Below are positions 44,175 to 51,774 of a DNA stretch of 52,315 nt, piece after piece. Each line of letters begins with the position of its first letter. Positions within the stretch are counted from its first letter, which is position 1. The stretch is from assembly GCA_030950085.1 (NCBI GenBank), contig JAUZRW010000128.1:1-52315 (forward strand). The letters run 5' to 3'. Below the pieces are notes generated by a model that had not been told where the DNA came from, ran no database searches, and saw nothing but the letters and a program-made list of their open reading frames with translations. The stretch is from Anaerolineae bacterium (GTDB lineage Bacteria; Chloroflexota; Anaerolineae; Aggregatilineales; Phototrophicaceae). The translations under genes and the position numbers were made by a program.

Positions 44175-47100
44175 CTATTCAGAAGAACACGTATCATTGA
44201 CCCCATCGGTCTGAATATACTGCGCCCATTCGCGGTTTGTTAGATTACGATTGCTCACCCCACAGGCGATTTGAATCCAATTATCAATGTTCAAATCCCA
44301 GCGAATTACATTGCCATCGTACCCTGTCGAGAACAAGGTCTCATCATCAACAAATTGAACCCCTGTCACCCGTTGCTGATGCCCAATCAAGGGTTCGCCA
44401 AGCGAACGCGCCGACTCCAAATCCCAGAGTCGCACTGTCGCATCGCCGCTAGAAGAGGCGAGATAACGGTTATTCGGGCTAATGGCGAGACCTGTAATAA
44501 AGCTATCATGTCCAATTAAACGCCGTTGTAGGGGGTTACCTGCGAGAAAGTCCCAAATAATAATCGTAGCATCACGCCCACCAGAGATTAATTGTGTGTT
44601 GCTTGGATCAAATAGAAGCGCATCCACACTATCCTCATGCCCAATCAATTCAGCAACAGAAGTGTCTGTCCCCAAATCCCACACACGCACAATAGTATCA
44701 CGTCCACCAGCCGCCAAATACTGTCCACCATTGCTGACGACCATGCTTGTAATGCCTACGTCTGACCCCGCTAACGGTGTGCCAACCCTACTGAAATCAC
44801 TCATATCCCAACGCAAGATAACGCCTGCATTATCGGCTGAAATGAGTTGTGAACTATCGGGCGTGAATACCAAAACTGAAATTAATGCCTCATGCCCCAC
44901 CAATTCAGCCATTAAGTCGCTATTTTCCACATCATAAACTAAGATTCGCCCACTATTACCTGTCATCGCCAATAACATTCCATTGGGGCTGAGAGACGCA
45001 TCGCCAAGTGTATTGCCCTGTGCTCTTTGTGCGAATACCGCCCGATTTGTTGCTGCATCCCACACTTGAATCGTACCGCCTTGGTCATAAACCATGAAGC
45101 GCTGTCTATCAGCACTTGCATCTAACACTTCAGAAGAAACACTGGTTTCAATTTCTAATTGACCGGGATTTTGAGGCAGGCTAATTTGCCACAATGAAAT
45201 ATCATTATCAACTGAGCCAGTCACCAATTGTAATGCCGTGGGATTAAACGCAACACTCCGCACTTGATTACTATGCCCTTCCAGTGCGCCGACTAAAACA
45301 CCTTCCCGTGTCCATAATTTTGCAGTGTTATCATGACTCGCCGTGACAATAAACTGACCATCAGCACTAAAAGCAACATCGCGCACCCAATCGGTATGAC
45401 GTGTCGGAACGAACCCTAACAAGCTCTGCTCTTCAACATTCCAATACGCTAAATTCATATCTGCCCCACTGCTAATGAGCAAATCGCCTGTTGGACTAAA
45501 ATCCAATGCCATCACCCAATTAGCATGTCCACTCAATTCGCCAATGTTTTCACCCGTTGCAGCACCCCACAGACGGATAAGATTATCATCACCACCCGAT
45601 GCAATGATTGACCCATCGGGGCTATATGTCACATCATAGATAATCCCCGCATGGGCATCATCAATCGTAAAGACTGTCTCTCCTGATACTACATTCCACA
45701 CGATAATCGCACTATTAGCGTCTATCTCACTATTACCGACATCATTCACATTATTCGCCACACTCACCACCAAAAAACGTCCATCTGGGCTAAATTCTAA
45801 TGTCCAAGCAATCAATCCGTAGTTAATGACTCGCAATTCCTCACCATCAGCAACCGACCATATCCTGACAGTACCATCCACACTACCGGAGGCTAACAAA
45901 CTCCCATCAGAGCTAAATGCGACCCGATTAATCGGCAACGTATGTCCAATCAACGGGTCACCGATGGCTTGCCGCGTCTCAACATCCCACAAGCGAATCG
46001 TATTATCCGCCCCCGCAGAAGCTATCATTGTCCCATCAGGGCTATAGGCAACTGAGTAAACCGCGTCACTATGACCATGCAAGTAAGAAAGCAAGAAAGG
46101 CTTTTGGATACCTGTCAACAAACTGTCGATAGCTTCATAAGTTTGGTCAGTATTCACCGCTTCGATACTAATTAACAACGCCAAATCCGTGTCATTGATA
46201 TTTGCAATCGCATTAGCCGCCAAAGCCCGTGATTGTGATTGTCGTGCTTGCTCATTAGCAATCTGTTCATTGGCAATCGCCGTTGCCCCAGCCGCTTCTG
46301 CAAGATGACGCTGCTCCGCCTCTTGAATCTGACCAATAACAGCGATAATCGCCATGATACCAGCCACAACTGCCAATGCAGCCAGCAAAATCATTCTATT
46401 ACGCCTATTACGGTCATCTTGTATTTTTAATGCTTGACTCGCCTCAAGATAATCGCGCTCTTCCTGAGTCAATACCAATGTATTGCTATAAAGCAGTGAT
46501 TCCAATTCGCCTAGTCGTATTCCCTTTGCCAAATAATCTTTTTTACGCTGACTCGCTATCCACTCATCCACAGACCGATTCAGTTGTTGCCGCCGTTGCA
46601 AGTCTGCCCGATTCTGTTGAATCCAAACTTGGAACTTACCCCATTTTTCAATCAATGCTTCATGGGCAATATCAACGGTTGGAGCGCGAGTTACAGGGTC
46701 ATTATCCAGCGTAAACAGGCGATGACTACCAAATGTATTAATCACATAATCAGCAGATTCGCGGTCTGCAATGCCCGAAACCAAGTCCGACCATAAGATA
46801 CGACGACGAGTTGCACGCGCATCGTCAGCCAATGCTACCAATCGCATGAACAACTGCCGCGCAATCAATTGTTGTTCTTCTAGCAAATCATCATAAATAG
46901 CATCCGCACTTTGCGCCAAAGACCCCGAAATACCCCCTATTTCATCATAAAGACCATAATGAAGCGTATTTTCTTTCGCATTCTCATACATCTGTGTCAG
47001 CGCATATTGCACAAGCGGCAAAGCCCCCGGTTGATTGCGAACTTCCTCCAACATCGCACTCACAAGATTATCGGCAATCAGTCCATGATTATCTTCAATA

Positions 47101-49067
47101 GGTCGCCTTATTGCCGCTTCCAAATCCTTTTCGGACAAGGACACTATCATTTCTGTATTTTCGCGTAAGAGTTCGCCAAATTCGGGATAATTGAGTGGGC
47201 GGTCAAGGTAATCTGCTCGCAGAGTCAAAATTAAGCGCAAGCGTCGTTGACCATGAGGGGCTACCAGCGCATAATACAAAGCAGCAAGAAACTGTTGCCG
47301 GACTTCTTCACTATCACTAAGCGTAAAGACTTCTTCAAATTGGTCAATGAACAAAACCAGTTCAGCATCTTCTTCTGGCAAAAGCAGTGATAATAAGTTA
47401 TGCAGCCCATCTACACGGTCACGTAATTGTTGTCCCCAATTTTTTGGCGCATTAACCGCAACTTGCAACAAAGCCTCACTCAGCGATTGAAACGGGTCAT
47501 TGCCCGGAATCATAGTCGTAATATACCATTCTTCCGAACCCGGCATCTGCCCACCCCGCATAGCCGGAATGATACCCGCCCTCACAAGGCTCGACTTCCC
47601 ACTTCCACTGGGACCAACCAGTGCAAGGAAGCGTTTGTCCTCATCGCGGAAAGCCTCTACAAGTCGCGCAACAAGAGTTTCGCGCCCATAGAAGTTGCCA
47701 GCATCTTCTTCCTCAAAGGCACTTAAGCCTTTATAGGGATTAGACCGTTTGTTGGTCAGCAGTGCTTGTGTCCCCATAGTGACAAATACGTTGCCCATCG
47801 CGTATAAGTCATGCAGGGACATTGCAGCTTCGCCGATACCAGAACTTCCAGCATCAACACCGCCTAAACCGTCTATTTCATATTCATCGACGGGCGCATG
47901 ACTCAGTTCAGCTGTGCCGTAATTTTCGCCTTGTACAGCACTTAAATCTTCTGTGCCGTAATTTTTATCCTGCGAATCGCTTAATTCATCTGTATCATTA
48001 TTTTTATCCTGCGAATCACTTAACTCATCCGTACCATATTCATCGAATGCCACACCGGATAAATCCGCAGTCGCTAAGTCGATGTCACTAGAGCTAATTT
48101 CAGTTGTACCAAGATAACTCGTGGATAGGTTGGATGTACCCACAGCATCTCTATCCATTTTTCCCGTGCTGAGGTCAGACTCGCCGCTTGATAGCTGTTG
48201 GCGGTGCGATATCATACGGAACTGCGGTGGCACATCAGACATATCACCAGCCACCTGCTGAAAAGCAAGTGCCAAATCAAGAACATCATCATAACGAGCA
48301 GCCGGTTTTTTCGCGGTAGCCTGCCAAATAATCGTATCAATTTCTGGCGGCAAATCTGGGCGCGATAATTTTAGCGAGGGAACAGGATTGCGTACCTGCA
48401 TTCTGACAATTTCTTGCGTAGAAGCCCCACTAAATGGACGGGCATTCGCCAAGAGTTCATAAAGCATAATACCGAGACTATAGATATCAGACTGTGGCGA
48501 TACTTTCTTCTCAATCAATTGTTCAGGCGCGACATATTCCGGCGACCCATACGACATATTCTCGCTCGAAACGATATCGTCCTCATCATCCAAATTTACG
48601 GCAATGCCAAAATCCGTTAAGTAAGCATTGCCCTGTTCATCCAATAAGATATTCTCAGGCTTAATATCACGGTGAATAATGCCGCGTTCATGAGCTAAGG
48701 CAAGTGCTGAGGCAATCTGGTTAAGAAACTTCACAATCATCGCCGGAGCGAAACGTTCTTGTCGCATCTGGTCACGAAGACTACCACCCTGTAACCAGCG
48801 CATAATAAGATAAGCACCATCCGGTTCACGCCAATAATCATACAAGGGTACAATATGGGGATGTTCCAAGCGTGCAATAATACGCGCTTCAGTTTCAAAA
48901 CGCCGAATGAACTGCGGCTGGTTAGCATACTTCTCGCGGATGACTTTAACGGCGACTTCGCGTAATATCACATCCTGACGGGCTTGGTAAACTGTACCAA
49001 AACCACCCGACCCCACAGCCTGTCCTAATTCATATGCCCGTATTCGCTTCCCCTCAAATTCGCTCAT
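44175..49067 (-). CDS. Ser/Thr kinase - T-x-x-L linker - nSTAND ATPase - membrane helix - 14 WD40 repeats
   Basis: The 1630-residue protein has a Hanks kinase at about 10-270 (VGSGGFGTVY, Lys 41, HRDIKPEN at 132-139, DFG at 152-154, SPEYVAPEQ). The linker 290-400 holds seven T-x-x-[L/I]-S motifs (T311, 321, 333, 346, 359, 372, 385), the last four exactly 13 residues apart. Then comes a nSTAND-type ATPase with Walker A GPSGSGKSS (485-493) and Walker B LVLFIDQFEE (570-579), one membrane helix near 895-915, and about 14 WD40 repeats (about 990-1610), enough for two seven-bladed propellers. The kinase and ATPase are expected inside the cell and the propellers outside. It lies after the FHA gene on the same strand. 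Its substrates are unknown. Confidence 0.9.
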   Translation of the reverse strand: MSEFEGKRIRAYELGQAVGSGGFGTVYQARQDVILREVAVKVIREKYANQPQFIRRFETEARIIARLEHPHIVPLYDYWREPDGAYLIMRWLQGGSLRDQMRQERFAPAMIVKFLNQIASALALAHERGIIHRDIKPENILLDEQGNAYLTDFGIAVNLDDEDDIVSSENMSYGSPEYVAPEQLIEKKVSPQSDIYSLGIMLYELLANARPFSGASTQEIVRMQVRNPVPSLKLSRPDLPPEIDTIIWQATAKKPAARYDDVLDLALAFQQVAGDMSDVPPQFRMISHRQQLSSGESDLSTGKMDRDAVGTSNLSTSYLGTTEISSSDIDLATADLSGVAFDEYGTDELSDSQDKNNDTDELSDSQDKNYGTEDLSAVQGENYGTAELSHAPVDEYEIDGLGGVDAGSSGIGEAAMSLHDLYAMGNVFVTMGTQALLTNKRSNPYKGLSAFEEEDAGNFYGRETLVARLVEAFRDEDKRFLALVGPSGSGKSSLVRAGIIPAMRGGQMPGSEEWYITTMIPGNDPFQSLSEALLQVAVNAPKNWGQQLRDRVDGLHNLLSLLLPEEDAELVLFIDQFEEVFTLSDSEEVRQQFLAALYYALVAPHGQRRLRLILTLRADYLDRPLNYPEFGELLRENTEMIVSLSEKDLEAAIRRPIEDNHGLIADNLVSAMLEEVRNQPGALPLVQYALTQMYENAKENTLHYGLYDEIGGISGSLAQSADAIYDDLLEEQQLIARQLFMRLVALADDARATRRRILWSDLVSGIADRESADYVINTFGSHRLFTLDNDPVTRAPTVDIAHEALIEKWGKFQVWIQQNRADLQRRQQLNRSVDEWIASQRKKDYLAKGIRLGELESLLYSNTLVLTQEERDYLEASQALKIQDDRNRRNRMILLAALAVVAGIMAIIAVIGQIQEAEQRHLAEAAGATAIANEQIANEQARQSQSRALAANAIANINDTDLALLISIEAVNTDQTYEAIDSLLTGIQKPFLLSYLHGHSDAVYSVAYSPDGTMIASAGADNTIRLWDVETRQAIGDPLIGHTLPINRVAFSSDGSLLASGSVDGTVRIWSVADGEELRVINYGLIAWTLEFSPDGRFLVVSVANNVNDVGNSEIDANSAIIVWNVVSGETVFTIDDAHAGIIYDVTYSPDGSIIASGGDDNLIRLWGAATGENIGELSGHANWVMALDFSPTGDLLISSGADMNLAYWNVEEQSLLGFVPTRHTDWVRDVAFSADGQFIVTASHDNTAKLWTREGVLVGALEGHSNQVRSVAFNPTALQLVTGSVDNDISLWQISLPQNPGQLEIETSVSSEVLDASADRQRFMVYDQGGTIQVWDAATNRAVFAQRAQGNTLGDASLSPNGMLLAMTGNSGRILVYDVENSDLMAELVGHEALISVLVFTPDSSQLISADNAGVILRWDMSDFSRVGTPLAGSDVGITSMVVSNGGQYLAAGGRDTIVRVWDLGTDTSVAELIGHEDSVDALLFDPSNTQLISGGRDATIIIWDFLAGNPLQRRLIGHDSFITGLAISPNNRYLASSSGDATVRLWDLESARSLGEPLIGHQQRVTGVQFVDDETLFSTGYDGNVIRWDLNIDNWIQIACGVSNRNLTNREWAQYIQTDGVNDTCSSE

Positions 49068-49172
49068 AACACTGCATCACCTGTTGTTTGTTATCAGACC
49101 ATATTCGCTCATATTACACAGAAATCGTAAAATGTGATGCTATTCATGATATTGAGACTTAAATTGGCATTG

Positions 49173-49203
49173 TAGCTATTCAGCTTGTCAGCACTTCAGC
49201 TTA
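49173..49203. repeat. Octamer-phased TCAGC repeat, second locus
   Basis: TAGCTAT is followed by TCAGCTTG, TCAGCACT and TCAGCTTA at 8-base steps. It matches 40462-40492 at 26 of 31 positions. It lies in the 223-base gap between the FHA and kinase genes. Confidence 0.5.
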
Positions 49204-49290
49204 TTATAGTTCAATATACCCTTGCTAAACTGCTTTACTCAACATGGCATTGCAAAATAGATATCTGCTTTCATCTTTGCGTAACGTTAG

Positions 49291-50298
49291 CTATTCACTC
49301 GGCACAATATCCAACAAATTTGTCATCAGACTATCCAAATGTGGCGCTAATTGTTGCACATAATCTTTCCGTTGCTCACCTAAGAATTTAATGACCAATT
49401 CTTGCAAGGCATATTCGGCAACCTGTTCTGCCATCGAATCATACTTATCAGCAAGAGCTATTTCCATTGCACTTTCCATTTCATCAGACAACGAAACTGC
49501 TTCGCCACCATCCAATACCTTGATAAAGTCTGGCATCTTAACCATCAAGAAGTTCATAACATCCGTACCGCCTTTAACATCCAACAGAATAGCCCCTTCC
49601 ATCGGTTCAGTACGAATCCGTATCACACTAAATCCCTCAGCTTCTTGTTGTTGTGCTTCGCGGATAATATAATAAATTCGTTCGACATTTTTCAGCAATT
49701 CAGCAAGCTCTTCTAATACAGAAGCTGCAAATCCACCTTGCGCCTGTACTAAAATCGTGTTTGATTGCGTCGTCAAGCGAACAGTATAATGGCTATCGGT
49801 AATAGTACCAACGAGGCGCTGCGAACTGCTACTCGCACCACGTTGCGGCATGGTAATATGGATAAGCAATGCCAACTGCCCTAAGCGAATTTGGTCGCCT
49901 GTTTCTACCGGATGCGGTTGATACGGCACAAGTTTAGAGTTGTTAACCCATGTCCCATTTGCACTGCCCATATCTTTCAAGTGATAACGATTATTCTGAA
50001 AATTGATTTCGGCATGGAGGCGCGAAACACCCAACTGTGCGCCGCGTTCTTCAGTTAAATCAATCGTCGGGTTAATTTTCCGCTTGGGGTCGCGCCGTCC
50101 CATCGTAATCGACGATTCGCGTGAAATTAGCGGTTCAGACCGACTCGGCAAATAGAATGAAATAACACGCAGTTCGTTCGTCACCGCCGCCGAATCATCT
50201 AATTGCATTGAGTCCGGCATCATCTGAGTGGGCAATACCTCTTCAATTATTGTTTCGTCGTCATACTTTTGTTCTTCATTTGGATTCTGGTCTGTCAT
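49291..50298 (-). CDS. FHA-domain protein
   Basis: The 335-residue cytosolic protein has an acidic N-terminal tail with Thr 16 and Thr 24, then an FHA domain (about 57-148) with all key residues: MGRR (66-69), SRLH (92-95), and SANGTWVN (112-119). FHA domains bind phosphothreonine peptides, often of the type pT-x-x-[D/I/L]. The C-terminal half (150-335) is helical with no recognised family. It is encoded 223 bases ahead of the kinase gene on the same strand. The kinase linker carries seven fitting T-x-x-[L/I] motifs, so the two proteins probably interact. Confidence 0.88.
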   Translation of the reverse strand: MTDQNPNEEQKYDDETIIEEVLPTQMMPDSMQLDDSAAVTNELRVISFYLPSRSEPLISRESSITMGRRDPKRKINPTIDLTEERGAQLGVSRLHAEINFQNNRYHLKDMGSANGTWVNNSKLVPYQPHPVETGDQIRLGQLALLIHITMPQRGASSSSQRLVGTITDSHYTVRLTTQSNTILVQAQGGFAASVLEELAELLKNVERIYYIIREAQQQEAEGFSVIRIRTEPMEGAILLDVKGGTDVMNFLMVKMPDFIKVLDGGEAVSLSDEMESAMEIALADKYDSMAEQVAEYALQELVIKFLGEQRKDYVQQLAPHLDSLMTNLLDIVPSE

Positions 50299-50535: not shown

Positions 50536-51774
50536 TCAATCCCCCTCATCTCCGTCACCACCTTCACCGCTACCTTCGCCGCCACTTCCACGGCTACCTA
50601 CACCGCCACTTTCACCGCTACCTTCAGGGCTATAAATATCCAACACATAAAATAGAGTTTCAGTAGGGATGTCGGGGGCTAGTCTTACTTCAGGAACATT
50701 AAAACCAGCAAAGACAATGGGTAGCGTGGGGTCACGGACAATCGGCAACAACGCCACTGATGCCATTTCTTCGGTATCAAATGTAGTCGGTACAGAGGGT
50801 GTACCAATAGGTCTCATATCATTCGACATGAGAATAGTCGTAGCTGTCCCCGAAATCACATAGTAACTTGTACCATTTGCCTCAACCACGCCTGTTCCAT
50901 CAATCATGCTGACAATCATGCCATCACCCGCATTGGCTGTGATAAATGCCGTTGCCCCGTTCGAGCTACCAATCAACTCGATACTCACCTCATTGATGAG
51001 TAAATTCACTCGTGCATTGCCGGCTGGCGTTTGGATAATAAGACCATCAGCTATCATATTCTCACAAGATGGGCTACTACCGCTCGTATAATAGAAGGCT
51101 TGCATCGTACCATAATAAGGTGTTACAGCATCTTGAACACTCAATATGTCAAATGTTTCATCCTCATTGACAGGCATAAGCAATTCTGCCAAAACCCAAC
51201 CTACAGCATCACTATCCGGGACACGCACGCGCAACCAAGACGTATCTTCTAAACGTCCTACCGCTTCCAGAATCGTTTCTGATGCGGCAGAATCCAATAT
51301 CACCGCATTCGATGAAGGCGTGTTACGAATATTCACACCGTAGCGCTCAACCTGAACCTCCATGATTGTCGTTAGCGCAATAGCACTCTCAATAGTGACA
51401 TCACCAAACAATAACAATGTGACATCTTGTGTCCCATTATTGATTGATGCTAATAGACGCATTTGTGCGATACCCCACACCTCAGTGCCGGGGTCAAATG
51501 CACTCAAAAATAGTGACCGTACAAAATTGAGCGAGGTCAAATCGCCGGGTGTCGTGAACGAAAAATCAGGTGCAGAATCTTGAGCGACAATATTGACATT
51601 ATAGTTCCCATAGCAAATTTCGTCGCGCCCAATGTTTTCGCATGTTTGCTCAACAATGGTGATAACCTGTGTTGCATCTAACTCACATGCACCCTCTTGT
51701 GCCTGTGCTATAAAAACCGCACCTAGTAACAAGAGTCCCATGAGAAAGACCAATATCAAAAATTGTTTCTTCAT
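50536..51774 (-). CDS. Secreted SH3-domain protein with Gly/Glu-rich tail
   Basis: The 412-residue protein has a signal peptide (MKKQFLILVFLMGLLLLGAV, cleavage likely after AQA near 25) and four Cys in the first 60 mature residues. A bacterial SH3-like domain is at about 147-215 (YGVNIRNTPSSNAVIL, then WLRVRVPDSDAVGWVLAELL), followed by a beta-rich region (about 245-320) that could be FecR-like. The last 30 residues are almost only Gly, Ser, Glu and Asp. It would sit in the envelope. The same strand carries FHA and kinase genes next, so it may be the outside partner of the signalling group; this is inference. Confidence 0.75.
   Translation of the reverse strand: MKKQFLILVFLMGLLLLGAVFIAQAQEGACELDATQVITIVEQTCENIGRDEICYGNYNVNIVAQDSAPDFSFTTPGDLTSLNFVRSLFLSAFDPGTEVWGIAQMRLLASINNGTQDVTLLLFGDVTIESAIALTTIMEVQVERYGVNIRNTPSSNAVILDSAASETILEAVGRLEDTSWLRVRVPDSDAVGWVLAELLMPVNEDETFDILSVQDAVTPYYGTMQAFYYTSGSSPSCENMIADGLIIQTPAGNARVNLLINEVSIELIGSSNGATAFITANAGDGMIVSMIDGTGVVEANGTSYYVISGTATTILMSNDMRPIGTPSVPTTFDTEEMASVALLPIVRDPTLPIVFAGFNVPEVRLAPDIPTETLFYVLDIYSPEGSGESGGVGSRGSGGEGSGEGGDGDEGD

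Follow-up and report, generated by a model that had tools for sequence, protein, structure and literature searches.

Linker threonines of an nSTAND1-WD40 kinase from Anaerolineae as candidate docking sites for its neighbouring FHA protein

A kinase-nSTAND1-WD40 gene carries seven threonine motifs in its linker

The DNA analysed here (the window) comprises 52,315 nucleotides of contig JAUZRW010000128.1 from an Anaerolineae bacterium. Three genes lie in a row on its reverse strand, as do all features described below: in the order of transcription, these encode an SH3_3 protein (50536–51774), a 335-residue FHA protein (49291–50298) and a 1630-residue kinase (44175–49067) with seven T-x-x-[L/I]-S motifs in the linker that follows its catalytic domain. 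These motifs and their relation to the FHA protein are the subject of this work.

The kinase was delineated from its open reading frame, Pfam matches and catalytic motifs. Its Ser/Thr kinase domain (residues 12–270, 48258–49034; PF00069 over residues 12–235, E = 2e-55) has intact Hanks-type motifs (GSGGFGTV at 19, AVK at 39, HRDIKPEN at 132 and DFG at 152), and a single chain unites it with an nSTAND1 NTPase domain (residues 444–843, 46539–47738; PF20703, E = 2.3e-110) and WD40 repeats (residues 994–1610, 44238–46088; PF00400). The initial annotation, made by reading the sequence, had placed the linker between the kinase and a STAND ATPase, and the Pfam domains agree. The linker (residues 278–440, 47748–48236) is acidic, with 32 D/E against 7 K/R over residues 273–440, and AlphaFold2, run with an 18-sequence alignment, predicts it to be disordered, with a per-residue confidence score (pLDDT) below 50 across its entire length, T433 included.

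Three features were missed in the initial annotation: a site at T433, a motif in the tail of the FHA protein, both described below, and a hydrophobic segment between the STAND and WD40 parts. This segment (residues 893–911, 46335–46391; Kyte-Doolittle 19-residue mean 3.09) is predicted to span the membrane and is preceded by RNRRNR. By the positive-inside rule, the side of such a basic flank is cytoplasmic, which would place the WD40 propeller outside the cytoplasm. The earlier proposal of a WD40/STAND sensor linked to a cytosolic partner is therefore probably wrong in part: the sensor side of the kinase is more likely extracytoplasmic. There it would be paired with the SH3_3 protein, which is predicted to be secreted from its Sec-type N-terminus (hydrophobic segment at residues 5–23) and was assigned by Pfam SH3_3 and synteny.

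Translation confirms the seven motifs at T311, T321, T333, T346, T359, T372 and T385. Their codons span 48137–47901, one codon beyond the boundary of 47904 first given. Successive motifs are 10, 12 and then four times 13 residues apart, and the regular spacing reported for the second half of the array thus holds. Among 100,000 composition-preserving shuffles of the linker, the average was 0.18 motifs and no shuffle had more than 4, against 7 observed, and none of the other 32 main open reading frames of the window has more than one such motif in any 80-residue stretch.

The 13-residue spacing is explained by a 39-bp tandem repeat identified with Tandem Repeats Finder (47939–48038; 2.6 copies, 80% matches, score 137), and because of this repeat four of the seven motifs have to be regarded as copies of one unit and not as part of seven independent events. 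Degenerate copies without the threonine stand at the two ends (ESDLS at residues 296–300 and IDGLG at 398–402). The codons for T, L/I and S vary mostly synonymously (proportion of synonymous differences, pS, 0.79; of nonsynonymous differences, pN, 0.21) compared with neighbouring codons (0.63 and 0.57), a contrast that is suggestive only, since the columns were picked for conservation and pN is thereby biased downwards. Serine is encoded by TCC as well as by AGC/AGT. Outside the array, T433-QALL (47757–47771) provides a further T-x-x-L located 10 residues before the sequence NPYKGL, which is the position of the single site in FHA-linked relatives.

The FHA protein has conserved pocket residues and a GarA-like tail

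That the gene upstream of the kinase encodes an FHA protein, as initially annotated, is supported by Pfam (E = 3e-16), which places the FHA domain at residues 65–140 (49879–50106). The residues of the phosphothreonine pocket are G67 R68, S92 R93, H95 and N114 G115, and this set (GR, SRxH, NG) is invariant among 17 FHA partners. The best Foldseek matches of the protein were the FHA domains of Rv0020c/FhaA, OdhI and GarA. In the AlphaFold2 model the FHA domain is well predicted; it is preceded by a disordered N-terminal tail (residues 1–41, mostly with pLDDT below 50) and followed by an alpha/beta domain (residues about 170–335, 49291–49791) without a Pfam match. Most FHA partners have this C-terminal domain, the exceptions being those of G116, G117 and L126 (G and L numbers denote genomes and loci). 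When the C-terminal half alone was used as a query, nothing was found in the order.

The tail contains T24-QMMPD (50212–50229), which fits the consensus T-x-x-[V/I/L/M]-[P/A/S/G]-[D/E/P] of the FHA partners, as expected of a protein resembling the GarA partner of PknG. This motif is found in 38 of 50 loci, a set that includes repeats of the same loci (for example TVPVPD, TTRVPD, TVMIPD and TRKLSE), and is preceded by a zinc-ribbon-like or disordered N-terminus and followed by the FHA domain.

Orthologous operons keep the FHA gene and a single linker site, not the array

Relatives of the operon were found by searching with the FHA protein, which as a query against genome contigs gave only three generic FHA matches and no orthologues, and then with the SH3_3 protein. 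The same triplet (secreted SH3_3 protein, FHA protein, kinase-nSTAND1-WD40) is present in G054, G116, G117, G121, G122, G124 and G125, which together with the window represent three families of one order. The FHA gene is kept beside the kinase in the orthologous operons of all three families, as the initial proposal called for. Their linkers contain DASTIVLQG (G116 and G117), LGTMVFE (G121, G122, G124 and G125) or, in G054, several T-x-x-I including TRMID. A kinase-STAND query gave a strong match in 83 of 98 family genomes, and nearly all of those fetched carry a kinase.

As a conserved feature, the array did not hold up. It was detected in none of the seven orthologous operons, in which the compared linker stretch measures 52–93 residues as opposed to 184 here; the linker as a query matched nothing but itself among the 98 genomes of the family; and part of the array is a 39-bp tandem duplication. 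Retention of T and the +3 residue in a drifting linker, as initially expected of orthologues, is seen for the single T-x-x-[L/I/F] of FHA-linked kinases and not for the seven motifs. These comparisons suggest that the array is an expanded version of one site that is conserved in relatives of the same order.

The same observations could be read differently. The linker might be a passive, flexible acidic spacer that has grown by duplication of the 39-bp unit, so that T-x-x-L-S is merely encoded and docking, if any, takes place only through T433 at the ancestral position. A tandem repeat in an acidic, predicted disordered segment, shorter linkers without an array in seven operons and the absence of a linker match in the family are what such a spacer would lead one to find. 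It accounts less well for the retention of T, L/I and S across units that have otherwise diverged, with a variety of synonymous codons that includes both TCN and AGY serines, or for the first motifs, which are outside the 13-residue register; nor would it explain why FHA-linked kinases in particular are marked by threonine motifs in which T and the hydrophobic residue are spaced alike (see below). We regard a passive repeat as unlikely, although it retains a sizeable minority of the probability, the array having been seen in a single genome.

A linker threonine before nSTAND1 accompanies an adjacent FHA gene

We gathered 99 distinct linkers between the kinase domain and NPYKGL. T-x-x-[LIF][DENQS] was present in 17 of 17 kinases with an upstream FHA gene compared with 20 of 57 without one. 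Downstream DNA was examined for 40 FHA-less kinases and for six that bear the motif in full or weakened form. Two motif-bearing kinases at first scored as FHA-less (L148 and L196) are immediately followed by a convergent SH3_3-FHA pair, and L174, which has an FHA gene further downstream, within a few kb, was counted as FHA-associated. T-x-x-[LIF] located 10–12 residues before NPYKGL was found in 17 of 20 FHA-associated kinases versus 5 of 47 others (Fisher p = 7e-9) and, after clustering of the kinases at 70% identity, in 5 of 8 versus 1 of 34 (p = 4e-4). There was no signal for Ser in place of Thr at the same position (1/20 FHA-associated kinases versus 3/47 others).

The −10 to −12 position window had been picked after the data were seen, which weakens this test, and a hold-out search with another FHA protein was carried out for this reason. 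Four of the five new complete linkers from FHA-adjacent kinases fit (L257 TIIIE, L258 TVMLE, L264 TFLID and L273 TPILN; L283 does not), which compared with the background of 5/47 gives p of about 0.002 by hand calculation. More than one T-x-x-[LIF] was observed in two other FHA-linked kinases. The G050 kinase (L126) has five, with a shuffle p of 0.008, and that of G054 (L050) has three, which is not significant (shuffle p = 0.08).

Could the site before nSTAND1 be a structural strand of the STAND module that is inherited by clade and involves no phospho-reading? Its fixed distance of 10–12 residues from NPYKGL and the hydrophobic +1 and +2 residues in relatives would suit a strand, as would S-I-V-I-P or S-I-H-I-P at the same place in some FHA-less kinases; FHA-linked kinases, however, have Thr and not Ser at this position (1/20 for the Ser version), and the array is far from the STAND domain. 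We consider a structural role very improbable. A strand packed on nSTAND1 was rejected, as residues 278–440 including T433 are unstructured in the AlphaFold2 model.

Alternatively, the threonines may be phosphorylated for a purpose other than recognition by the adjacent FHA protein: they might tune kinase-STAND coupling by charge or be read by other FHA proteins. The FHA query matches 25 places in this genome, 24 besides the operon's own, and several kinases (L151, L160 and L156) possess the site although no FHA gene adjoins them. The strong co-occurrence of site and adjacent FHA gene speaks against this reading, and the best-studied exceptions are less clear-cut than they appear: G033 and G031, the genomes of L151 and L160, keep full-length FHA homologues elsewhere (L275 and L278), and the linker end of both kinases, ILNIAAVAQK, is that of L273 (G032), which directly follows an FHA gene. 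We judge this alternative improbable.

A number of observations weigh against docking of the neighbouring FHA protein. The sites of L050 and L126 are elsewhere in the linker, L174 lacks the site despite an FHA gene within a few kb, and L151, L160 and L156 have it although FHA genes are absent from their vicinity. The array was seen in a single genome, in a comparison set without a close relative of the genus, and its +4 position is Ser where most relatives have an acidic or amide residue. Within the FHA domain, the pocket loop, typically S-[ST]-N-G, has A113 where Ser or Thr would be usual, and any of the 24 other FHA-like places in the genome could hold the true reader. Finally, FHA-linked members fall in two main groups of the kinase tree. 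Since these groups are few, descent explains part of the association between site and FHA gene; judged from the tree, independent origins are few and FHA-linked kinases are confined to a few clades.

A proposed model of FHA docking on linker phosphothreonines

On balance, we favour as the probable and most economical reading, from sequence comparison, that the adjacent FHA protein docks on the linker threonines in a PknG/GarA-like module, and that a single ancestral site has been multiplied here. The kinase, which is cytosolic and connected by nSTAND1 and a single membrane segment to an outward WD40 propeller, would be activated and phosphorylate threonines of its own linker. The FHA domain would then bind pT-x-x-[L/I/F] (pT, phosphothreonine) and recruit the FHA protein to the kinase, a step suggested by the tendency of site and FHA gene to occur together. 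By analogy with GarA and OdhI, the docked protein might then be phosphorylated in turn, at the T-x-x-[V/I/L/M] of its N-terminal tail; this tail would subsequently fill the protein's own FHA pocket and release or switch the FHA protein. Relatives have one site just before nSTAND1; here the 39-bp duplication together with older repeats would have led to seven, in addition to T433. More sites would be expected to raise local FHA occupancy; a graded or cooperative output and self-docking in cis, as initially proposed, are conjectural.

A broader proposal is tentative, and we hold it to be possible but rather doubtful: that a family of receptor-type kinases in this order recruits the FHA protein of its operon through linker phosphothreonines whose copy number evolves by tandem duplication, the number of sites determining how strongly or how cooperatively the system responds to an extracytoplasmic WD40/SH3_3 signal. 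The site counts behind it are one in most kinases, five in G050 and seven plus one here.

The closest known parallel is PknG of M. tuberculosis, in which autophosphorylated Thr23, 32, 63 and 64 of a disordered tail anchor the FHA domain of GarA; the N-terminal T-x-x-hydrophobic tail of GarA/OdhI (ETTSVF) is subsequently phosphorylated and binds the protein's own FHA domain with a hydrophobic +3 residue (PMC8546545). The present system likewise has several threonines in a predicted disordered kinase segment and an FHA partner with an N-terminal T-x-x-hydrophobic tail. It differs in that the sites are between kinase and nSTAND1 instead of N-terminal and form a near-regular repeat array, that the sensor is nSTAND1-WD40 with a membrane segment where PknG has rubredoxin/TPR, and that the FHA partner, unlike GarA/OdhI, has an extra C-terminal domain and shares its operon with the kinase and a secreted SH3_3 protein. 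There was no TPR family among the 25 best Pfam matches of the kinase. As nSTAND1 and WD40 replace TPR, the kinase is not PknG, although it would be PknG/GarA-like in its working if the model holds.

Two FHA motifs are on record, and one of them is pTxx[I/L/V] (PMC8786283). In Bdellovibrio DgcB, the FHA domain binds pT-x-x-V of the protein's own N-terminal tail, with the +3 Val filling the pocket (PMC6733907). The FHA proteins studied here have similar tails, but the output domain of DgcB is GGDEF and the ligand is a tail and not a kinase linker. MupFHA of M. ulcerans also binds its partner kinase PknQ and is phosphorylated by it; docking there is through phospho-Ser170 and phospho-Thr174 of the activation loop, with no linker array. 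Rv1747, according to a review, combines FHA domains with a disordered linker, and phosphorylation by PknF raises its condensation (PMC9312465); two FHA domains and the linker belong to one ABC transporter there, whereas in the present system it is the kinase that carries the array, and its partner has only one FHA domain.

Our literature search found no paper treating WD40/FHA/PkwA-type kinases together, and little on partners of nSTAND1-WD40 kinases, which are abundant in this group. The triplet, a linker site that predicts the adjacent FHA gene and a GarA-type tail offer a testable scheme in which an outward-facing sensor would be wired directly to an FHA protein in the cytosol, and the seven-fold array is a natural series with which to ask whether the number of docking sites sets response strength.

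Variation around the SH3_3 genes and in other linkers

The Gly/Ser/Glu-rich C-terminus of the SH3_3 protein in the window is encoded by a 24-bp/12-bp tandem repeat (50558–50626). Near the G054 triplet, three more SH3_3-protein paralogues stand in a row on the opposite strand (L050:15228–19778). An SH3_3-FHA pair convergent with a kinase-nSTAND1-WD40 gene and overlapping its 3′ end was observed at L208:6873–12367 and L210:1–4266. At L094, L095, L096, L097 and L102, SH3_3-protein paralogues directly adjoin WD40-matching genes, which hints at a general partnership of SH3_3 with WD40 proteins.

The kinase-STAND linker of other kinases of the family contains a segment that resembles a LuxR-type helix-turn-helix (LTQREHEIL...GTVKWHVNQIYGKLGVRSR), which suggests kinase-helix-turn-helix-nSTAND1-WD40 fusions. 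The kinases with this segment are L023, L030, L033, L036, L038, L041, L133, L135, L137, L146, L158, L162, L164, L177, L181 and L184.

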